Source of the DNA: Candidatus Melainabacteria bacterium
Lineage (GTDB): Bacteria > Cyanobacteriota > Vampirovibrionia > Obscuribacterales > Obscuribacteraceae
Direction: 5' to 3'
Length of the DNA: 64,000 bases
Assembly: GCA_016212515.1 (NCBI GenBank)
Contig: JACRFZ010000114.1
Span: 1 to 64,000, forward strand
Part shown: positions 16,573 through 46,640 of the stretch, piece after piece
Layout: every line of letters begins with the position of its first letter
Position numbering within the stretch: position 1 is the stretch's first letter
The notes under the pieces: model-generated
The model's input: the letters and a program-made list of their open reading frames with translations, nothing else
Databases searched by the model: none
Told to the model about the DNA's origin: nothing
Position numbers and translations under genes: made by a program

Positions 16573-17946
16573 TTACTGCTGGCCTTCCGGGTACTGGTTA
16601 TGCACTTTGTTGAGGAAGCGAGTGATGCTGCCCTGATAAAGCAAATCGACGGTACCAACGGGGCCGTTTCTTTGTTTGGCGATGATGATTTCCGCTTCGC
16701 CGCGTTTTTCACTTTCGGGATTATAGTATTCGTCGCGGTAAATGAACATAACCAGGTCGGCGTCTTGCTCGATTGATCCTGATTCTCTCAGGTCTGAAAG
16801 CATGGGGCGTTTGTTCTGTCTGGCTTCCACCGCCCTGGAAAGCTGGGAGAGAGCAATCACCGGTGTGTGCAATTCTCTTGCCAGAGTCTTCAGGCTTCGC
16901 GATATTTCCGAAACTTCCTGTACGCGGTTGTCGGTGGCTTTGCGCCCCTGCATGAGCTGAATGTAGTCGATGATGACCATGCCCAGCCCTTTTGCTTCGG
17001 CCTTGAGGCGCCTGCACTTGGCTCTCACTTCCAGAACGTTGACCATGGCGGAGTCATCTATATAGATGGGCGCTTCTCCCAGTTTGCCCATGGCCATGGC
17101 TAAATGGGTCCAGTCATTGGTATGGAGATGCCCGGTTCTAAGGCGGTTAGCGTCAATTTTGGCCTCGGAGCAGAGCATCCTCTGTACCAGAGATTCTTTG
17201 GACATCTCTAGAGAGAAGATAGCGCAGGGCACATTGTTTTCTACGGCACAGCTAGTAGCCAGGTTGAGCACGAAGGCTGTCTTACCCATGGAGGGACGAG
17301 CGGCCAGAATGATCAGGTCGGAAGGCTGGAAGCCTGAGGTCATGGCGTCCAGATCGTAGAATCCGGAGGGAACTCCTGATAGCACTTCCCGGTTTTCATA
17401 GCGTTCTTCGATTTTCTGAAAAGAAGTTTCGACAATATGCTTGATGTGCACCATGGATTGCATATTGCGCTTCTGAGCCAGGTTGAAGATCATATGCTCC
17501 GCCTTGTCAAGGGCGGCGTCGGCATCGGTTTCCTCGTAGCAATGGGCGACGATTTCCGAACCGGCTTTAATCAAATTGCGCAATACCGCCTTCTCTTGCA
17601 CGGTTTTGGCGTAATACTCAAGGTTGGCCGTGGTGGCCACGGAGAGCGACAGGTCGGTAATGTACTGGCGTCCACCGACCATATCTAGTTTGCCTTCATC
17701 TTTGAGGAACTGGGATACGGTAACGATGTCAATAGGTTCGTTGGCATCGTAGAGGTCGAGCATGGCTGCGTAGATGACCTGGTGAGCTTTGCGGTAGAAA
17801 AACTCAGGCTCGAGGCTGTCTACGACTCTGGAAACGCCGTCGCCCGATACCAGAAGGGCGCCCAGCACGGCTTGCTCCGCTTCCAGCGACTGGGGCGGCA
17901 ACCTTTCCAGGGTGGCATCGTGCAAAGTTGATAATTCGGCGCTCAT
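16573..17946 (-). CDS. dnaB: Replicative DNA helicase DnaB
   Basis: A 457-residue DnaB. The N-terminal domain starts LPPQSLEAEQAVLGALL. The RecA-like half has Walker A ARPSMGKTA, then IFSLEMSKESLVQRM, Walker B VIIDYIQLM and the C-terminal HRDRLx-like segment (IIAKQRNGPVGTVDLLY). It unwinds DNA at replication forks as a hexamer in the cytoplasm. No intein insertion is visible. It is on the same strand as, and upstream of, the TadE-like gene. Confidence 0.97.
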   Translation of the reverse strand: MSAELSTLHDATLERLPPQSLEAEQAVLGALLVSGDGVSRVVDSLEPEFFYRKAHQVIYAAMLDLYDANEPIDIVTVSQFLKDEGKLDMVGGRQYITDLSLSVATTANLEYYAKTVQEKAVLRNLIKAGSEIVAHCYEETDADAALDKAEHMIFNLAQKRNMQSMVHIKHIVETSFQKIEERYENREVLSGVPSGFYDLDAMTSGFQPSDLIILAARPSMGKTAFVLNLATSCAVENNVPCAIFSLEMSKESLVQRMLCSEAKIDANRLRTGHLHTNDWTHLAMAMGKLGEAPIYIDDSAMVNVLEVRAKCRRLKAEAKGLGMVIIDYIQLMQGRKATDNRVQEVSEISRSLKTLARELHTPVIALSQLSRAVEARQNKRPMLSDLRESGSIEQDADLVMFIYRDEYYNPESEKRGEAEIIIAKQRNGPVGTVDLLYQGSITRFLNKVHNQYPEGQQ

Positions 17947-37551: not shown

Positions 37552-38271
37552 TTACTTCTGTTTAGGCACTCCCATTACATAGTTTTGCAGAGCATCGGAT
37601 TCGCGCGGTTCGTGCACGCGATACAGTCTTCTCAAGCGACGGTCCATGGCCAGAATGGTTGTTTTGGAATGTTTGACGGCATCTGCATCCTGATCTACTT
37701 TGCGCAGTTGGGCCTCCAATTCTTCCATGGTCTGGGCCGGTGGTTTTGGTTTAATCATCTCCTCGTAGACCCGGGCGGCGCTATCGAACCATTCCGCCCT
37801 CATTTCCTTGTATTCTTGCAGATCAACCCTGCCGTTGGGAATCTGGAGATTACGTAGTGCCGTGGCAGTATTACGATAACGTTTGGCCACACTGCGGGCC
37901 GTTCTAGTCCAGCGCTCAACTTTTTCCAGTTCGCCGTCAAAGTTTTGAGAGAGGTAAAAGCGCTCTTGCTCTTTTGGCCAGCCTCGAAAACAGATGGTGT
38001 CGAGAGACTCGAAAAAAGTCAGTTCGGGAGAAGCCGCCGACGTCATGGAAAGGGCGCCCGGGGCCGTCACGGCATTGGCCGGTTGCACCGGCGGCGGTGC
38101 TACATAAGTATTTTTCTTGACGGGTTTGGTGCCGCTCTGGGGCATAGCTCCGAACATTTCGTTGGCAGGAGCGGCTTGCGCCTGGATTTGCCCAATTAAG
38201 CCAGGAACGAGCAGACAAAGCAGAGCCAGAACCTGCCTTATTTTTCTTCCTGGTTTAGTGACTTTCTCCAT
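37552..38271 (-). CDS. Secreted protein of unknown function in rpoB operon
   Basis: A 239-residue protein. The N-terminus has basic residues then VLALLCLLVPGLIGQIQAQA, a signal peptide. The rest is polar: a proline-rich stretch followed by helices (LEKVERWTRTARSVAKRYRNTATALR...). I recognise no domain. It lies 25 bases downstream of the two-TM gene and so is probably co-transcribed with the TPR-RpoB genes. Confidence 0.65.
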   Translation of the reverse strand: MEKVTKPGRKIRQVLALLCLLVPGLIGQIQAQAAPANEMFGAMPQSGTKPVKKNTYVAPPPVQPANAVTAPGALSMTSAASPELTFFESLDTICFRGWPKEQERFYLSQNFDGELEKVERWTRTARSVAKRYRNTATALRNLQIPNGRVDLQEYKEMRAEWFDSAARVYEEMIKPKPPAQTMEELEAQLRKVDQDADAVKHSKTTILAMDRRLRRLYRVHEPRESDALQNYVMGVPKQK

Positions 38272-38296: not shown

Positions 38297-39229
38297 TTAG
38301 TTGCCTGAATTAAAGAGGGGTTGTACGGGAACGCCGGACCTACCCGTTGTGGTGGCACCGACAGCGGGAGTAGCCGGTAGATTCGGTCTGGTCATGAAGG
38401 CGTCCTGAACCTGGGCCCCGCCGGCTTTAGCCTGAATCTGGGCGGCTCGGTCGGAGTTGGCGTTGAAGGTATTCATCTGTACTATTTTCCAGATTGTATA
38501 AGAGGCTAGGAGCAAGAAGAGCCCCGAGGCTGCTCCCAGAACGCGGGCGCCGCCATAAGGACTGCCGTTCACCATGGAATAGGCGGCCAGAGCCATGAAG
38601 ACCGTAGCTGATACCACGCCCAGAATGACCAGGTAGCGGCCGAAAGTGGCCACAGTCGGAATCACGCCGGGAAAGGCGTAGATGGCTTCCCGACCGGGCA
38701 GCGGCCTGCCTGCTGCTGGATTGTCGCCGGTAATTTGTTTGCGTCCGCCGTTCATTGAGGTTTGCGGATAGGCAGCCATGGCTTCATTGAGCTGCTCTAA
38801 TTGGGCATCGGAGACGGTGACGTCCACCGATTGCTCGCCGGAATTCATATTGACACCAAGAATGCCGCCTATCTGGGCCTGCTGTTGGGGCGTCAGGGTG
38901 TCGGGTCTGATGGTCTGCACCATGCGCTGACCACGTCCATCCATTTTATAGATTCGTACCACGGTGCGATCGGAGCCGGCACCGACAGGAAAATTCGTAC
39001 CGGCACTGCCGTCGGCCCCGCCGGAGGGTACTGCCGGAGCGCCACCGGTGTCGCCTGGATCAAGGGGCGGCGGGACACTGCCGTCGCCGGGCGGCGGCGG
39101 TTGAGGTACGCCTACCTGGGCTTGGGCTGTCTGGGGAAAGAGCAGGAGGGAGAAACCGGCAATCACCAGGAAAGCTAACACTGTCAGTTTTGCGCTTAAT
39201 TTGGCATTTGTAAGGAGTCTTTCAGACAT
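38297..39229 (-). CDS. Two-TM VirB2/TrbC-like protein in rpoB operon
   Basis: A 310-residue protein. It has a signal-anchor (KLTVLAFLVIAGFSLLLFPQTAQA), a Gly/Pro/Asp-rich region, a middle domain with MVQTIRPDTLTPQQQAQIGGILG, then two hydrophobic helices separated by a short loop (YLVILGVVSATVFMALAAYSM and GLFLLLASYTIWKIVQM). The two-helix pattern resembles TrbC/VirB2 pilin subunits of type IV secretion, but this is a weak match. It is 21 bases downstream of rpoB, so probably in the same operon. Confidence 0.55.
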   Translation of the reverse strand: MSERLLTNAKLSAKLTVLAFLVIAGFSLLLFPQTAQAQVGVPQPPPPGDGSVPPPLDPGDTGGAPAVPSGGADGSAGTNFPVGAGSDRTVVRIYKMDGRGQRMVQTIRPDTLTPQQQAQIGGILGVNMNSGEQSVDVTVSDAQLEQLNEAMAAYPQTSMNGGRKQITGDNPAAGRPLPGREAIYAFPGVIPTVATFGRYLVILGVVSATVFMALAAYSMVNGSPYGGARVLGAASGLFLLLASYTIWKIVQMNTFNANSDRAAQIQAKAGGAQVQDAFMTRPNLPATPAVGATTTGRSGVPVQPLFNSGN

Positions 39230-39250: not shown

Positions 39251-42200
39251 CTAGCTGGAGTTTTCATCGGACGGTTGCTTGTTTTCTTCCGTGGGCAAGT
39301 GGACCGCTTCCTTCTCTATTATGCGCCTGCCTTCCGCCGGTTGTTTGAAATAGCCGCTGGGCGGCAGTTCACTTTCAATCAGGGGTTCGGTTTTCAACTC
39401 CGCTTGTGCTGCCTGGCTTTGGCTTTCATTCTGGCGCTTGCCGGTTATGGCTGCCAACTCCCTGGCCAGGACCGTAAGTTCTGAGAAGGCCGGGAAGCCG
39501 CTTATGCCGCCCGGTCTGACTAGACTGTTGCCTATCTCTCTGGCCAGCAGTTCAGGTAATTCCGGTAAGTTTGCTTTGCCATGGTCTCCGTTTGGCGGCG
39601 GTGTAACCGGGGGGCTTTGCGGTTGCGCTTTTTTCTGAACTGCCGTGTCGAAATCTTTGGGAATGTCGTCCGGCATATCCATTTCATCGTCGTCGCCACC
39701 GAGGGTGATTTCGCTGATGAAAGCGTCCACGAAGGATGGTGTCGAGGCTGGTTTTTCTTCAGCTTTTGGCACCTGACTCTCGTCTATGTCATCAAACAAC
39801 GGTTCCTGCGACATTTCAATACGTGGTTTCCCACCATGTTTACCGCTGGTGATGGAGGTAATGACCGGAGGCGCCGGTGGTTTCGTGACCGGAACGTAGT
39901 CGCCGGCGGGGATTTCCAGGATTTTGGTGCCGTCACCGGCTTCCAGCTTGTCAACTCTGGAGACCTGATAATGTTCTTCCAGAGTTTTCGTAGGAGTCCC
40001 ATCATCTTTTTTCTCTTTGGCACTTTCGCCTTCTTCGGCCACGCCTTTGAGGGGCATGGGTTCGAAGGTGTCCACCACTTTGCCGAGGGTCACTTCCATA
40101 CCCAGACCGCGAATTTCGCAGCAGAGTCCGTCGAAGGCAGCGGTGCGGCCGCCGGGCTGAATTTCATTGCCCTGCACCATATCGGCATAAGACTGGTGGC
40201 GGCCCTGAATGTCGTCGGCTTTGATGGTCATCATTTCGTGCAATACGTTGGCGGCGCCGTAGGCCTGGATGGCCCAGACTTCCATCTCGCCCATTCTCTG
40301 ACCGCCGTGGTTGGCTTTCCCGCCCACTGGCTGCTGGGTGACGGCGGCATAGGGGCCGCCCAAGCCGGAGCGGGCGTTTATCTTGTGCAAGACAAGCTGG
40401 TTTAGCTTGAGCATGTACTGCCGACCCACCAGAACCGGTCTGTCGAAAGCTTCACCGGTACGACCGTCGTAGAGTTTGACCTTGCCGTCTTCGCCCATCC
40501 ATTGATAGTTGGGCAGTTTTCTCACTTCCTTCAGGGCATCGGTGACTAGCCTGAAACTGGCATCCGGGGCGATGGATTCGTCGAACTGGTGGATGCGGTA
40601 ATAGCGATTGAGGATGCTGGCATAGAGTCCCAATTGGGTGTCGAAGACCTGTCCCACATTCATACGGCTGGGCACGCCCAGGGGATTGAGCACCAGATCA
40701 ACTGGGGTGCCGTCCGGCAGGTAGGGCATGTCGCAGTCTTTCACCACAATGGCCACGATGCCTTTGTTGCCGTGGCGTCCAGCCAGTTTGTCGCCGACTT
40801 CCAGGGGGCAGAGCCTGGCAATCAATACTTCTATTTCACAGATGATGCCTGCTTTCAATTCCGGTGTAGTTTCCGGCGTGAAGATGCGCACATCGATAAC
40901 TCGACCGCCGGAGCCGTGGGGCACGCGCAAGCTGGTGTCGCCCATTTCCTCGGCCACCTTGCCGAAGATTGCTTGCAATAATTCTTCTTCCGCTGAAAGG
41001 GCTTTTGCTTCCTTGGGTGAAAGTTTAGAAACTAATATGTCGCCGGGATTGACATAGCTACCTATTTTGGCGATGCCGCGGTCATCGAGATGCTCGAGGT
41101 CTTTGCCGGCCACATTTGGCAATTCCGGTGTGAGAATTTCCGGTCCGCGCAGGGTCTGGTGTACGCCGATGGAATGTTTTTCAATTTCAATGTGGCTCAA
41201 TTTGTGGTCTTTCACAAGACCTTCTCTGACCACAATGGCGTCTTCAAAGTTGTAGCCGTTCCAGGAGAGGAAGGCAATTAAAAGGTTACGCCCCAGGGAT
41301 AATTCACCGTTATCGATGGCCGGTCCGTCGGCAATTATCTGCCCGGCTTCCACCTGCTGTCCCACTTTTACGGAGGGGCGCTGGTCGAGGATGGTGTTCT
41401 GGTTGGTGCGGTCGTATCGGATCAAACTGTAAGACCGGGCTTCGCCGGAGGCCTGGGTGATGACGATTTCGTTGGCCGTCACTTTGGTGACCGTGCCGGC
41501 GCGCCTGGCAATTACCGAATGACCGGAAGAGCGAGCCACAATGCGCTCCATGCCTGTTCCCACCCTTGGTCTCTCCGGGCGAATCAGGGGCAGGGTCTGG
41601 CGCATCATGCCACCACCCATGAGGGCGCGGTTGGCATCGTCGTGTTCGAGGAAGGGAATCAAGCCCGAGCCCACCGAAATGAAGCCCTGGGGTGCGATGC
41701 CGATCATGTCTACTTCTTCGGGCGTTACCTCCATGAAGTTTTCACCACGACGGGCCGCCACCATGGGACCTAAAATTTTGTTGCCCTCTACCTTTGTATC
41801 GGGTGGTGCCAGGGTATGCCGCTTGTCGTCACCCGGTCCCAGAAACTTGACTTCATCAGTGATGATGCCGTTTTCCACACGCCGGTAAGGCACGGTCATG
41901 AAGCCGTCGTCGTCGATGCGGCAGTAGGTAGCCATATAGGAAACCATGCCGCAATTCTTACCTTCCGGTGATTCCACCAGGCAGACTCGCCCGATTTGAG
42001 AAGGGTGTACGTCGCGCATTTCTACCGGTGCAGCAGCCGGGTCGATGCCCCCCGGACCGAAGGAAGTGATACGGCGCCGGTGTGACAGCTCTGAAAGCGG
42101 GTTCTGTTGGTCGAGATATTGCACCAGTGGATTGCCCGTGAAATATTTGCTGATGGCGTTGGCAAAAGGTCTGGTATCGAGCAGGTCGTTGGGGGAGGCT

Positions 42201-43246
42201 ATTTCCTCATCCTCGTTCAACTCCAGTCTGGTGCGAATGGAGCGCGTCATCTGACCAAGAGCCGGTCGCACCGCTCTCGTCATGGTTTCACCCACACCTC
42301 TCAGGTGCCGGTTCTCCAAGCTGTCGATGTTATCCATGTGACCCATGTCCAGGGGCAAGCCGAGGATATATTCAATGGCGGCCATGAGATCTGTGGCCGT
42401 GAGCTGATGTCCTTCTCCTTCCAATCCGAGCTTGGCGTTGAGCCTGCGTCGTCCCAATTTTCCAAGGGAATAACGGCGTTTATCAGTCAGTTCCTTCAAG
42501 GCTGTGGCGCCACTGCCGGCACCACCACCGCCGTCTGGTTTCCAGCCTCGACCAACCACTGCCAGTGCTTCAGACTGAGAGAGTTTCTTGAAGTCGATGC
42601 GGTTGCGCTCCAGTAAGGAACCCAGCCTCCTCTGAATGTCCTGGGCGTCTACACCCATGGCCAGCAAAACGGTGGTGGCGGCAATCCAGGAACGCTTCGG
42701 TAATTTGATACGACATTTTGCCCGGCTGGTCTTGCCCATATTGGGATCAAGTTCCAGTTCAAAGGCAATGGGCGCGCCCATCTCGGCCAGCATCAGGGCC
42801 TTGTACGAGGTAGGACCGCTGGAACTGAAATAGATACCGGGGGCGCGTACTAGCTGCCCCAAGACCACGCGTTCCGAGCCGTTGATGACGAAAGTGCCGC
42901 GGTCGGTGATGACCGGTACATCGGTCATATAGGCGGTGGACTTGCGCAGTTCACCGGTCTGGTTGTCTCTCAGGTAGACATCCATGAGCAGTCTTCTGGC
43001 ATGGGTCATATTGGTTTTTCGAGCCATCTCCGGTGAGGTGGGATAGCCTGAATCCGGAGCATAGTCTTCAAAGCGCCAGTGCACCTTACCATCTGGCGCC
43101 ACAAAGGTTATCTCGAAACGTCCGGCGTATTCGCTGCCCACCGGTGAAATTTCTGAGAAAAGGTTGCCCAGGGTCTCTTCCAGAAATCTTCTATAGGAAC
43201 GCCTGGGAAATTCGGCCAGATCAGGTGCCTGGAAATAGAAACTCAT
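39251..43246 (-). CDS. RNA polymerase beta subunit (RpoB), probably a second copy, with long C-tail
   Basis: A 1331-residue RpoB. Catalytic and structural motifs are kept: protrusion start (DLAEFPRRSYRRFLEE), the Rif cluster (371-400), GYNFEDAIVVRE (664-675) and KLAGRHGNKG (820-829) with both basic residues, GVPSRMNVGQVFDTQLG (857-873) and GGQRMGEMEVWA (981-992). Departures: ESPEGKNCGM where most have ETPEGPNxGL, T where Ser531 (E. coli) stands, a Gly-rich insert at 239-246, and about 277 extra Pro/acid-rich residues after 1054. The start codon overlaps the TPR gene's stop (ATGA). No rpoC or ribosomal genes are near, so it is more likely a paralogue than the housekeeping subunit; that needs genome-wide checking. 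Confidence 0.85.
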   Translation of the reverse strand: MSFYFQAPDLAEFPRRSYRRFLEETLGNLFSEISPVGSEYAGRFEITFVAPDGKVHWRFEDYAPDSGYPTSPEMARKTNMTHARRLLMDVYLRDNQTGELRKSTAYMTDVPVITDRGTFVINGSERVVLGQLVRAPGIYFSSSGPTSYKALMLAEMGAPIAFELELDPNMGKTSRAKCRIKLPKRSWIAATTVLLAMGVDAQDIQRRLGSLLERNRIDFKKLSQSEALAVVGRGWKPDGGGGAGSGATALKELTDKRRYSLGKLGRRRLNAKLGLEGEGHQLTATDLMAAIEYILGLPLDMGHMDNIDSLENRHLRGVGETMTRAVRPALGQMTRSIRTRLELNEDEEIASPNDLLDTRPFANAISKYFTGNPLVQYLDQQNPLSELSHRRRITSFGPGGIDPAAAPVEMRDVHPSQIGRVCLVESPEGKNCGMVSYMATYCRIDDDGFMTVPYRRVENGIITDEVKFLGPGDDKRHTLAPPDTKVEGNKILGPMVAARRGENFMEVTPEEVDMIGIAPQGFISVGSGLIPFLEHDDANRALMGGGMMRQTLPLIRPERPRVGTGMERIVARSSGHSVIARRAGTVTKVTANEIVITQASGEARSYSLIRYDRTNQNTILDQRPSVKVGQQVEAGQIIADGPAIDNGELSLGRNLLIAFLSWNGYNFEDAIVVREGLVKDHKLSHIEIEKHSIGVHQTLRGPEILTPELPNVAGKDLEHLDDRGIAKIGSYVNPGDILVSKLSPKEAKALSAEEELLQAIFGKVAEEMGDTSLRVPHGSGGRVIDVRIFTPETTPELKAGIICEIEVLIARLCPLEVGDKLAGRHGNKGIVAIVVKDCDMPYLPDGTPVDLVLNPLGVPSRMNVGQVFDTQLGLYASILNRYYRIHQFDESIAPDASFRLVTDALKEVRKLPNYQWMGEDGKVKLYDGRTGEAFDRPVLVGRQYMLKLNQLVLHKINARSGLGGPYAAVTQQPVGGKANHGGQRMGEMEVWAIQAYGAANVLHEMMTIKADDIQGRHQSYADMVQGNEIQPGGRTAAFDGLCCEIRGLGMEVTLGKVVDTFEPMPLKGVAEEGESAKEKKDDGTPTKTLEEHYQVSRVDKLEAGDGTKILEIPAGDYVPVTKPPAPPVITSITSGKHGGKPRIEMSQEPLFDDIDESQVPKAEEKPASTPSFVDAFISEITLGGDDDEMDMPDDIPKDFDTAVQKKAQPQSPPVTPPPNGDHGKANLPELPELLAREIGNSLVRPGGISGFPAFSELTVLARELAAITGKRQNESQSQAAQAELKTEPLIESELPPSGYFKQPAEGRRIIEKEAVHLPTEENKQPSDENSS

Positions 43247-45306
43247 TTGTTCTCTCCCGTTAAGGAGCGTTGATGAATTTTTAGAACTCTGGCCAGGTCT
43301 TCCGCATAGGTCCTGTTGCCAGGATCGAGGGCGCTGGCGATTCTTAGTTCCGAAAGGGCTTCGCTGGTCTGTCCCAGATTGACCAGATCCAATCCAAGGC
43401 GGTGGTGAATATCCGGGTTCTGTAAGTTGTTGGGCAGGGCATTTTTCAAAATTTCCACAGCCCCGTTGAAATCGCCTCGCATTTCCAGGGCGGCCACTTG
43501 CTGCAGGACGGGATTTTCGGTCTTGGCCGCGGCCCTTGGCGGTGTCGAATTCGGTGCTTCGCCGCCTCGCTCTACCAGGTCGCGCCGGCCGGTATCACCG
43601 GTGGTTTCGCTCTCCCGCCTCTCGTCATGGGTGGCAAAGCTGCCTGTGAAAGGTGCCGGTTCGCCGGCTTGCGCGGCGCCGCCCCCTTCAAACATGTTTT
43701 TCTGATAGATTTGCGGATTGGCGCTATTGCCGGTCTGAATCGCTTGACCGGGTTGACCCGGTTGGGTTCTGGGAGCGGGAACCTGGGTTTGCGGTTGCTG
43801 AACGGTTCTCTGTAGTTGCGGACGTGCCTTTTCAGCTTCCGGCGCCGGTTGCTGCGGTCTTGCCTGATTCTGCCCCTGACCGAACTGACTCATGAGCTCT
43901 CTCATGCGTCTTGCCCCTTCTTCGTTCTTAGGGTCGATGAGGACGCTCTTGCGGTAGGCTGCCAGGGCATTTTGATAGTCTCCGGCCCCTTCCAGATACT
44001 CGCCCATCTGGAACTGGTAGCGGGCGTTATTGGGTTCCATCATGGCGGCCTGAGCCAGTTCGGAGAGGGCTTCTCGTTTCAAGCCCTGACCATAAAAAGT
44101 TTCGGCGGCTTCCCGGTGTTTTTCCGCTTCCCTGTGTTTGCGAGCCTTGGCCAGGCTGTTTCTGGCCGGTGTGAGCTGGGGATTTTGCCGGTCCAGCTGT
44201 TCTACTTTCATATACTCGCTCTCGGCGCCGTCGAGGTCGCCGGTTAGCTGCAGGGCCGTACCCAGACCCAGGTGATTTTCTGCCAGAGTAGGTTGAGTTG
44301 CTACTTGTTTGCGCCAGATTTCCACCAGCGCTTGTCCGGCGGCGGAGTCGTCACCATTGGCGATGACGGCTTTGCGCAGGGCCGAGGCCGCCGAGGTGAA
44401 GTCCTTCAGCATCATGTAGGCGAAGCCCATGCCCCGGTGCGCCGGACCGTAGCCGGCATCCTTGACTATAGCCTGGCGGTACCAGGAAACGGCATTGGGA
44501 ATCTGCCCGAAGCGCACGGACATGTCGCCCATTTTTGTATAGGTTTTGGCGCAGGGGTCAAGCTGCATAGCCAGGGTGTATTCGAGAGTGGCTCCGGTGA
44601 GATCGCCGCCGGCTGCCAGTTGATCTCCCAGCCCGATGCGATTGTCGGCCAGGGCCGGATCGAGACCCATTTTCTTGACGGCCTGGCTGAGACCCTGACC
44701 GGCCAGGGCGTTGTTGGAAGCCGCCCCCAGGCTCTTGCGAAAGAGATGAGCGGCGCCCGAGGCGTCACCCTGTTTGAGTCTTTGTTCACCGTACTTGCAG
44801 TAAGCGGCCGATAGATTGCGTTTGAATTCTTCATTACCCGGATCTATTTTGCAGGCCTTTTCGTGCTGGCTGACTGCTTCCGCCCAGCGTCCGACCCGCC
44901 CGAAACCGACGGCGGTATTATTGGCGTTTATGGCTTCCTGCTGCAGAGCTTTGATGGCTCTGACCTGTTCTTGTTTGGCTTTCTCCGCCTTTTGTACTTC
45001 GGCCTGGGCTTTTTGAGCTTCCTCTTCTTTTTGCCGTTTTTGTTCGTCCCGGTAGTCGGGCTTACGGTTAGCCCAGAGGCTGGGCGGCATCGGATCGGCG
45101 TTACCACTGCCCTGACCGCTGAAGTCTTTGGCCGGGCGATCAAAAGTGGAGAAACGCGGTAAGGGTTTGGCGTTGAGCTTGGTGGCCAGGGCTTGCTGGC
45201 AGGCGCCTGTGAGGGTCATGACACCAAGGGCAGTAGCAAAGCAGGAAAGTGTTTTGCTTCCCGTTTTAACTATCCTGGTCTGGCTTTGAACTCTCGCGGA
45301 CATCAT
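43243..45306 (-). CDS. Exported TPR protein coupled to rpoB
   Basis: A 687-residue protein. The N-terminus (LSCFATALGVMTLTGACQQALATK) is a signal peptide or anchor. A Lys/Glu/Gln-rich coiled coil follows, then many TPR repeats (e.g. WAEAVSQHEKACKIDPGNEEF, ISWYRQAIVKDAGYGPAHRGMG, YQNALAAYRKSVLIDPKNEEGA). A Gln/Pro-rich linker precedes a final TPR pair. Its TGA overlaps the ATG of rpoB. An exported repeat protein and a polymerase subunit in one operon is very unusual. The start follows a palindrome cluster at 45360-45406. Confidence 0.8.
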   Translation of the reverse strand: MMSARVQSQTRIVKTGSKTLSCFATALGVMTLTGACQQALATKLNAKPLPRFSTFDRPAKDFSGQGSGNADPMPPSLWANRKPDYRDEQKRQKEEEAQKAQAEVQKAEKAKQEQVRAIKALQQEAINANNTAVGFGRVGRWAEAVSQHEKACKIDPGNEEFKRNLSAAYCKYGEQRLKQGDASGAAHLFRKSLGAASNNALAGQGLSQAVKKMGLDPALADNRIGLGDQLAAGGDLTGATLEYTLAMQLDPCAKTYTKMGDMSVRFGQIPNAVSWYRQAIVKDAGYGPAHRGMGFAYMMLKDFTSAASALRKAVIANGDDSAAGQALVEIWRKQVATQPTLAENHLGLGTALQLTGDLDGAESEYMKVEQLDRQNPQLTPARNSLAKARKHREAEKHREAAETFYGQGLKREALSELAQAAMMEPNNARYQFQMGEYLEGAGDYQNALAAYRKSVLIDPKNEEGARRMRELMSQFGQGQNQARPQQPAPEAEKARPQLQRTVQQPQTQVPAPRTQPGQPGQAIQTGNSANPQIYQKNMFEGGGAAQAGEPAPFTGSFATHDERRESETTGDTGRRDLVERGGEAPNSTPPRAAAKTENPVLQQVAALEMRGDFNGAVEILKNALPNNLQNPDIHHRLGLDLVNLGQTSEALSELRIASALDPGNRTYAEDLARVLKIHQRSLTGENK

Positions 45307-45359
45307 TTCTATAGCTGGGCTTACCTTTGAAATCTTATATATGGTTTAGATTAACCAGA

Positions 45360-45406
45360 ACTTTGCCGAGGTTCCATGGGAATATTCCCCCTGCAAAGTA
45401 CTTTGC
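45360..45406. promoter_or_regulatory. Nested palindromes upstream of TPR-rpoB operon
   Basis: ACTTTGC at 45360-45366, the perfect 12-bp palindrome GGGAATATTCCC at 45378-45389 and the perfect 14-bp palindrome GCAAAGTACTTTGC at 45393-45406. ACTTTGC recurs exactly 40 bases apart. This is the pattern of a multi-site operator, 54-100 bases before the TPR start codon. Confidence 0.6.
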
Positions 45407-45502
45407 CTGCCTCACTTACAATATTTATTGAACCAGGTTTTTTGCCTCTTTTCATGGTTTTCCCAAACTAAATAGGGCAGGAAACGTGCAGGAGGGATAT
45501 GT

Positions 45503-45806: not shown

Positions 45807-46640
45807 TTGGATTCAGCTATATCGGTCCAGAGGCATTCTGTGTTTCGTCCACGCACTGTACTATGCGAGAGGCATGAGCTGATTCGCTTCGGTTTGAAGC
45901 GGGTAGTTTCGGAAGTGGTTGAAATCGTCGGCGAAGCCGCAGACGGTATGGCCGCCACCGAGATGATTCGTAGATTGAGACCCGATTTCGTCATTCTTGA
46001 TGTGGATCTCGATGTGCTCAACGGAGTGGAAGTTTGCCGGCGGGTTTCGCAGGAACTGCCCAATGCCAATGTCTTGATTTTGACCGATTCTTACCATGCC
46101 ACTAAGTATCACAACCAGTTGAGCCGGGCGGGCGCCCGCGGTTTCTGTCTGAAGAGTTCCGGTCCCCGTACCCTTTTCGAGGCCATAGAGCAGGTCACAA
46201 GGGCTCTGCCTTACTGCGACCCGAAGATTACCCAGCTCGTCAAGCAGACCCCCACTACTAATATGCCGAATTGCAATCTCACCGACCGTGAGATTGAAGT
46301 TCTGATTCGCCTCGACCTTCGCAATAAAGAAATTGCCGAAGAGCTTGATATGAAGCTGAGAACGGTAGAGAAGCATATTGAGTGTATTCTTGCCAAGTTG
46401 AAAGTACCGACCCGTACTGCCGCTGCCTTGAAAGCCGTGCAGTTGGGTTATGTGCTTCTGCCCAAGATGCCCGGACGGGATCCAGTTACCGGTGTCAGTC
46501 ATGAACAGACTGTGGCGGAATTGCAGGCCGAGCTGGCCATCGCCAACGAGCATTTGAAAGCCCTTCTCAGACAAAATGAGCTTTTGAAGGAAGCCCTGAA
46601 CGAGAAGATGCGCAATCCTAATACTAATCCCAATACCTAG
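45807..46640 (+). CDS. NarL/LuxR-family response regulator with C-terminal coiled coil
   Basis: A 277-residue protein. The receiver domain has FVILDVDLDVLNG (phosphoacceptor Asp) and GFCLKSSG (conserved Lys). A LuxR-type HTH follows: LTDREIEVLIRLDLRNKEIAEELDMKLRTVEKHIECILAKLKV. After the HTH, family members usually stop, but here ~55 residues continue as a heptad-rich coiled coil (VAELQAELAIANEHLKALLRQNELLKEAL) ending in NPNTNPNT. The TTG start has GGGAG at six bases. It is divergent from the TPR-rpoB operon, so it may regulate it; that is inference. Confidence 0.88.
   Translation: MDSAISVQRHSVFRPRTVLCERHELIRFGLKRVVSEVVEIVGEAADGMAATEMIRRLRPDFVILDVDLDVLNGVEVCRRVSQELPNANVLILTDSYHATKYHNQLSRAGARGFCLKSSGPRTLFEAIEQVTRALPYCDPKITQLVKQTPTTNMPNCNLTDREIEVLIRLDLRNKEIAEELDMKLRTVEKHIECILAKLKVPTRTAAALKAVQLGYVLLPKMPGRDPVTGVSHEQTVAELQAELAIANEHLKALLRQNELLKEALNEKMRNPNTNPNT

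Follow-up and report, generated by a model that had tools for sequence, protein, structure and literature searches.

Is the second RNA polymerase beta subunit gene of a Melainabacterium placed under an operator of its own, and which regulator would act on it? Bacteria usually alter their transcription by the exchange of sigma factors. The Obscuribacteraceae are non-photosynthetic relatives of the cyanobacteria, and the window analysed here, a stretch of 64,000 nucleotides from one of their genomes (contig JACRFZ010000114.1, positions 1 to 64,000), carries an operon in which a TPR-repeat protein gene is followed by an unusual rpoB. A preliminary description of the window had pointed to two palindromes and a short repeat upstream of this operon as a multi-site operator, with the divergent response-regulator gene as the obvious candidate for its regulator. 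The window belongs to a 6.1-Mb genome (G000, contig 96), which was compared within an order set of 53 genomes, 50 of them from the family labelled f1, apparently the Obscuribacteraceae, and three from a second family, f2.

The operon and its second rpoB

The genes of the operon and the divergent regulator gene are laid out as follows.

37552–38271, minus strand: 239-aa gene, no Pfam or NCBIfam match; same strand, downstream, possibly in the operon
38297–39229, minus strand: 310-aa gene, no Pfam or NCBIfam match; 21-bp gap, probably in the operon
39251–43246, minus strand: rpoB2, for a second beta subunit of RNA polymerase (1331 aa); its start and the TPR stop share ATGA
43243–45306, minus strand: TPR-repeat protein of 687 aa, whose gene opens the operon; N-terminus resembles a signal peptide by eye
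45807–46640, plus strand: response regulator of the NarL/LuxR type (277 aa), its C-terminal extension conserved; divergent, candidate regulator

The rpoB gene had been called unusual, and so it proved, being a second, intact copy. G000 has two rpoB genes (two PF00562 matches), and the housekeeping one is a 1169-aa frame on contig 77, just upstream of the only rpoC match. RpoB2 is 45% identical to the housekeeping RpoB of its own genome and 43–45% identical to housekeeping copies across the class. Its Rpb2 domains 2, 3, 45, 6 and 7 score above the Pfam cut-off and domain 1 below it (21.9 vs 28.2), and the protein reaches 1014.9 bits against TIGR02013 (cut-off 801). Seven RpoB motifs, which we take to be the catalytic and beta-prime contact motifs, were compared between 57 rpoB2 rows (many of them near-copies) and 10 other rows; all seven are kept in rpoB2, among them NFEDAI, GDILVSK, AGRHGNKGI, GVPSRMN and GGQRMGEMEVWA. 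The rifamycin region (NPLVQYLDQQNPLSELSHRRRITSF) has several differences from that of housekeeping RpoB, although over 90% of the rpoB2 rows retain the histidine that corresponds to H526 (ELSHRRRITS). The last ~270 residues form a variable, low-complexity tail. Judging from these features, RpoB2 would work as an alternative core subunit.

Orthologues of rpoB2, at 68–88% identity, occur in 46 of the 50 f1 genomes and in one of the three f2 genomes, and the four f1 genomes without one have a completeness of 83% or less; orthologues of the TPR gene also exist in the family. By comparison rpoC (PF04997) gave exactly one match in 36 of 40 genomes and none in four incomplete ones. A search with six peptide patterns in 84,980 species returned 24 loci of at least 71% identity as well as two Kiritimatiellae loci (36% and 52%). 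The 24 loci are mostly assigned to Melainabacteria, Obscuribacterales or Cyanobacteria, with a few unclassified, and the contig of the one labelled Actinobacteria matches an f1 genome (G005). In a quick tree, whose two outgroup rows are very long and whose root is not fixed, the rpoB2 sequences cluster together (support 92), separate from the canonical copies of the class (100). No rpoB2 was seen in the f2 genomes G024 and G025; the third, G026, has one on a short contig (L057, G026:C92), with a G+C content of 0.39 against 0.38–0.42 for f2 rpoB. This copy branches at the base of rpoB2, and its position and f2-like G+C hint that rpoB2 is older than the family.

The upstream palindromes and the family operator

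The region between the operon and the divergent regulator gene contains the following elements, in which the operator units are putative assignments.

45348–45353, minus strand: predicted −10 hexamer TAATCT, read by eye; 17 bp from the −35, aligns with the family TTAAGCT block
45360–45366, plus strand: first copy of ACTTTGC, probably incidental; within the predicted −35/−10 spacer
45371–45376, minus strand: predicted −35 hexamer TGGAAC, read by eye
45377–45390, minus strand: proximal operator unit, 14 bp, family form TGGGA-N4-TCCCA/CCCCA; placed by alignments A1 and A2 only, with a poor matrix score
45378–45389, minus strand: GGGAATATTCCC, a perfect palindrome of 12 bp forming the core of the proximal unit
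45393–45406, no strand assigned: 14-bp perfect palindrome GCAAAGTACTTTGC, probably incidental
45397–45410, minus strand: position at which the family has the distal operator unit (TGGGANNNNTACGA), 20 bp further upstream than the proximal one; eroded in the window genome

The two perfect palindromes of 12 and 14 bp are present at 45378–45389 and 45393–45406, as is the repeated ACTTTGC, with its second copy at 45400–45406, 40 bp from the first; the whole stretch lies 54–100 bp upstream of the operon, the TPR start being at 45306. The palindromes had been described as nested; they are separated by 3 bp and are therefore adjacent. Even palindromes of at least 12 bp number 26 in the window, where 200 first-order Markov simulations averaged 15.9 (sd 4.1); those of at least 14 bp number eight against 4.3 expected in the same simulations. 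Neighbouring palindromes no more than 20 bp apart, one of them 14 bp or longer, should occur 0.05 times per 64 kb, and 10 of the 200 simulations produced such a pair at least once; the window has two such pairs, 45378–45406 and 17055–17099, so the pair upstream of the operon is unusual, yet not unique even within the window. The other pair, at 17055–17099, is made up of CATCTATATAGATG and CCATGGCCATGG.

The 14-bp palindrome did not turn out to be a motif. A search with GCAAAGTACTTTGC found one exact copy in the 6.1-Mb genome, and with up to two mismatches 23 places against 16 for a reversed-pattern control, so the 14-mer is not recurrent. The two other genomes of the genus (G001 and G002) read GGCAAGAATTACCG at the homologous place, without the palindrome, and the 40-bp ACTTTGC repeat is absent from both; the stretch at the first ACTTTGC copy shows no conservation in alignment A1. 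The 14-bp palindrome looks accidental. It appears to overlie an eroded distal site, and is private to the window genome among those compared.

A different picture emerged when the regions upstream of the TPR gene were aligned from 24 f1 genomes. Alignment A1 has 23 rows (the full set minus G006; MAFFT shifts G013 in it), and alignment A2 has 17, from which the three genomes of the window genus, G011, G013, G006 and G003, with more divergent sites, were left out. Outside the window genus the upstream block reads TGGGAnnnnTACGnA-N5-GTGGGAnAAACCCCAATAGACT, followed after ~15–17 bases by TCGTTAAGCTGTGCTCAC. The family operator is a pair of 14-bp dyads, each TGGGA-N4-TCCCA (or TACGA, often in the distal unit), whose starts are 20 bp apart, and its proximal dyad abuts a sigma-70-like −35. 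The geometry is fixed: TGGGA or GGGGA stands at both units with the 20-bp spacing in all 17 rows of A2, and 24 of the 50 columns of the TPR-rpoB2 promoters are invariant or of a nearly invariant type. Variants of the distal unit include TTCGTATTCTTACGAA (G022) and TGGGAATTCCCCCA (G021, G045), and the third target of G007 has GGGAATATTCCCA, the same as the window's palindrome; the half-site of the family dyad would thus be either TGGGA or TCGTA. An RNA element was considered and rejected: RNAalifold on A2 gave only a 4-pair hairpin, with no compensatory change and a covariation term of 0.06.

In the window genus, g1, the proximal unit before TPR-rpoB2 is a perfect palindrome. The 16-mer GGGAATATTCCCATGG around it is identical in G000, G001 and G002, whereas its flanks differ among the three, and the corresponding unit of G011 reads GGGGAATTTTCCCATGG. 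The TTAAGCT-like block follows at 35 bases in these genomes, against 36–37 in the others (by eye). The distal unit has eroded to GGCAAGAATTACCG in G001 and G002 and to GGCAAAGTACTTTGC in the window, which with this loss lacks the paired arrangement of dyads, spaced by 20 bp, upstream of the −35. The family matrix scores the window TPR site at −25.4, rank 2360 of 127,930 positions, and ranks its proximal half alone 288 of 127,970. The identity of the window site derives from its alignment with G001, G002 and G011 and from its promoter position, which make the 12-bp palindrome a likely remnant of the family operator.

The preliminary description thus located an operator in the window for a partly wrong reason. 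An operator before TPR-rpoB2 is there, and in the family it is multi-site; as sites of it, neither the 14-bp palindrome nor the repeated ACTTTGC is supported, since G001 and G002 lack the palindrome and the first ACTTTGC copy falls in the predicted promoter spacer. A lack of conservation upstream of orthologous operons had been named as what would refute the idea; by this test the 12-bp palindrome passes and the 14-bp one, absent from G001 and G002, fails. A second block, AAAACCATGAAAAGAGGNAAAAAACCTGNTTCAATAAATA (45420–45462, minus strand, ~30–75 bp upstream of the proximal dyad), is conserved in the three g1 genomes and was not seen in the other aligned genera.

A small regulon

A sequence-only model built from A2 (R1) and run on the 53 genomes matched before TPR-rpoB2 in 43 of the 50 f1 genomes, 17 of the 43 being training rows. 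The E-values were 1e-4 or better in 42 of them and 0.0055 in G006. In G000, G001, G002 and G011 the operator is visible by alignment only, and G041, G052 and G056 have no assembled locus. An exact operator pattern, tried on 24 genomes, gave five matches, all before TPR-rpoB2, and was too strict; R1 and a refined model of 24 rows (R2) were used in its stead. R2 was run on 19 genomes, and its best match was 1.8e-5 or better in each of the 17 f1 genomes among them, several of which, G000 included, had supplied training rows. The f2 genomes G024 and G025 gave only E 0.17 and 0.12, and in another 14 genomes, G026 plus 13 from other families, no match fell below E 0.0106. The window TPR site itself is missed by R1 and receives 3.7 bits from R2.

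In many genomes R1 found a second match upstream of a 78-aa gene (MSMFQDP..., G000:C107:3807-4040, L179), which has no Pfam family and is present in 47 of the 50 f1 and all three f2 genomes at 69–100% identity to the query. As an independent test, a matrix made from the 17 TPR-rpoB2 promoters alone was applied to the 200 bp upstream of this gene in the 46 f1 genomes in which that stretch is complete or nearly so (in G062 it is cut by the contig end). The operator was found in all 46, each scoring above 100 of 100 Markov shuffles; the genomes are related, so these are not 46 independent events. Scores ranged from 2.2 to 47.9 bits, the lowest (G005 2.2, G010 10.5, G052 15.0) being variant sites, and the G000 site is best read, by eye, with 21 bp between the units. 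The same matrix found no operator before the 78-aa gene in the three f2 genomes. Since the operator recurs before an unrelated gene, it marks a small regulon, whose reality for the family is close to certain.

Other targets, with an operator of the same layout, are lineage-specific. A 350-aa gene in G000, G001 and G002 has R1 matches of E 0.03–0.04 and R2 matches of 1.8e-5 in G000 (a training row) and 0.43 and 0.28 in G001 and G002. Further targets are large proteins without a Pfam family in G040, G022, G015 and G006 (E 6e-5 to 0.013), 436–438-aa proteins in G003 and G023 (E 1.5e-5 and 4.3e-5), a 332-aa frame in G055 (E 0.0016) and 62-aa frames in G014 and G054 (E 0.07). DUF2225 proteins have operator-like promoters in G007 and G058 (L258, L265), with a look-alike in G012 (R1 0.02–0.04), and a good match on contig 102 of G022 (1.1e-6) has no clear gene downstream. 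The weaker of these lineage-specific targets may be due to chance. The place of the operator before rpoB2 and before the 78-aa gene suggests that an alternative RNA polymerase stands at the centre of this small regulon.

Regulator, mechanism and known systems

The choice of the divergent response regulator as best candidate has held up. Orthologues of at least 82% identity occur in 47 of the 50 f1 genomes and one of the three f2 genomes (G064 has it in pieces, G021 as a contig-edge fragment), and in 41 of 43 genomes the gene shares a contig with the operator at a distance of no more than 15 kb, which shrinks to 1 kb or less in 28. The protein has a receiver domain (Response_reg, E 6e-17, residues 19–128) and a GerE domain (E 7.8e-11, 157–209). 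By eye, the receiver has its Asp in VILDVDL, Thr in ILTDS and Lys in FCLKSS, and its acidic pair reads E-R (CERHE) instead of two acids. The HTH and the C-terminal extension are nearly invariant among 31 sequences; the extension looks like a coiled coil and might bridge a pair of dimers bound at the 20-bp repeat. G014 has another copy of the regulator (G014:C12:109901-110686), 82% identical to that of the window. Autoregulation through the same operator was considered and rejected, the best own-strand scores in 15 intergenic regions being −1.0 or lower.

From this linkage the NarL-type regulator likely acts on the operator, and its binding and activating there is plausible. The operator could be real and nonetheless be bound by another transcription factor, an unlikely reading that is still the best placed of the alternatives. 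In the f2 genome G025 a regulator orthologue is present, rpoB2 was not found and the 78-aa gene has no operator, which indicates that regulator and operator do not match everywhere; moreover, 1.7–14 kb of other DNA separates the two in 13 of the 41 genomes with both on the same contig, in G012 they are on different contigs, and the regulator gene has no operator on its own strand. Against this stand the persistence of the linkage in 41 of 43 genomes, the near-invariant DNA-binding domain, which fits a fixed operator, and the resemblance of the 14-bp, GAATATTC-centred dyad to the RcsAB box of a NarL-family regulator.

The mode of action is read from the promoter. Family promoters, by eye, have CCCCAA, then TTGTNN or TAGACT, and TANNNT ~17 bp further; the place homologous to the window −35 likewise reads TAGACT or TTGTNN in relatives. 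Counted from these predicted hexamers, the dyad centres lie near −43 and −63, presumably the usual positions of class II activators. The hexamers are weak, as read by eye, which fits a dependence on an activator. That the operator is instead a repressor site also seems unlikely: the proximal dyad does touch the −35, where repressors also bind, but the −35 is weak in sequence, and the dyads are placed ahead of the core promoter, with none over the −10 or the start. The preference for activation over repression comes from position alone.

The window palindromes might also be accidents or leftovers of mutation that have no role in this genome, regardless of what the operator does in the family. 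The window site scores poorly, its distal unit is lost, and palindromes are in any case abundant in the window (26 vs 15.9). This reading is nevertheless rather improbable, in view of the 16-bp block that is identical in the three genus genomes, with diverging flanks, and of the operators that the window genome keeps before its 78-aa and 350-aa genes. It is highly improbable that the conserved block is a promoter class for an alternative sigma factor or for the RpoB2 polymerase, with rpoB2 driving its own regulon: the block does include a conserved −10-like part (TTAAGCTG/TTAAACTG) besides the dyads, and few promoters per genome carry it, but symmetric dyads repeated at 20 bp ahead of the −35 mark a bound dimer and not a sigma factor, the −35/−10 positions shift between targets as the dyads stay, and alternative half-sites (TTCGTA) stand in for TGGGA.

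The reading we favour, at a probability of roughly two in three, is that GGGAATATTCCC represents the proximal part of an activator operator conserved in the family, which would define a small regulon of the NarL-type regulator with the alternative RpoB2 as its main product. The operator would serve the TPR-rpoB2 operon as well as the 78-aa gene and a few lineage-specific genes elsewhere in the genome. The phosphorylated regulator would bind the two units as tandem dimers with centres near −43 and −63, the 20 bp between dyad starts amounting to two helical turns, and would recruit RNA polymerase by class II activation. As RpoB2 rises, it would compete with the housekeeping beta for the only beta-prime seen, and would enter a working polymerase. 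In the window genus, Obscuribacter, the distal unit before TPR-rpoB2 would have eroded and the proximal unit become a perfect palindrome.

A bolder proposal, which we advance only tentatively, is that the Obscuribacteraceae switch the core of their polymerase: on a signal sensed by the response regulator, the regulator and its two-dyad operator would turn on an ancient beta subunit that replaces the housekeeping one on the single beta-prime, together with the 78-aa protein, which may act on the alternative polymerase. If so, a two-component system would here control the exchange of a subunit of the catalytic core instead of a sigma factor, and if the old second beta indeed has its own operator and linked regulator, a whole family would change its polymerase core on signal. 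The operator offers a direct handle on the matter, as it names co-regulated genes, the 78-aa gene first, and promoters and a protein to test.

In the open-licence PMC literature, no second rpoB and no such operator were found reported for the Obscuribacterales or Melainabacteria. The rpoB of the group has been used as a marker or clock, in the relevant sections of these papers with no mention of a second copy (PMC8047818, PMC4914512); the two very different copies in the Obscuribacteraceae call for caution with rpoB as a marker gene. Duplicated full-length rpoB genes are described for actinomycetes, namely rpoB(S)/rpoB(R) of Nonomuraea gerenzanensis and rpoB2 of Nocardia farcinica, and the sections of that report on the duplication give two full-length copies per genome, which predict two polymerase forms differing in beta, and an altered rifamycin-region sequence in the second copy (PMC5431353). 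The present case is alike in these respects and in its second full-length rpoB beside a housekeeping one with a single rpoC. It differs in that RpoB2 shares only 45% identity with its housekeeping counterpart, forms an old clade of its own kept in nearly the whole family, and has upstream of its operon a conserved operator to which a response-regulator gene is linked; in addition, it keeps the H526-equivalent histidine, unlike the H526N-type change in the portion of the actinomycete report concerned (PMC5431353).

The operator unit itself recalls the RcsAB box, whose consensus, in the part of the source that treats it, is TaAGaatatTCcta with T1, A3, G4, T10 and C11 conserved: both are 14-bp imperfect dyads with a GAATATTC core near promoters and belong with a NarL-family regulator (PMC4325325). 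Unlike the RcsAB box, the family operator has outer half-sites TGGG/CCCA and two units at 20 bp, and comes from a different phylum. The window unit TGGGAATATTCCCC (plus strand, 45377–45390) matches four of the five RcsAB letters and has G at position 3. In class II activator promoters of two-component systems, tandem dimer sites abut the −35 and the regulator gene is divergent or nearby. The tandem dyads abutting the −35 and the divergent or nearby regulator of the Obscuribacteraceae follow the same plan, whereas their targets are set apart as a second polymerase subunit and proteins without a known family.
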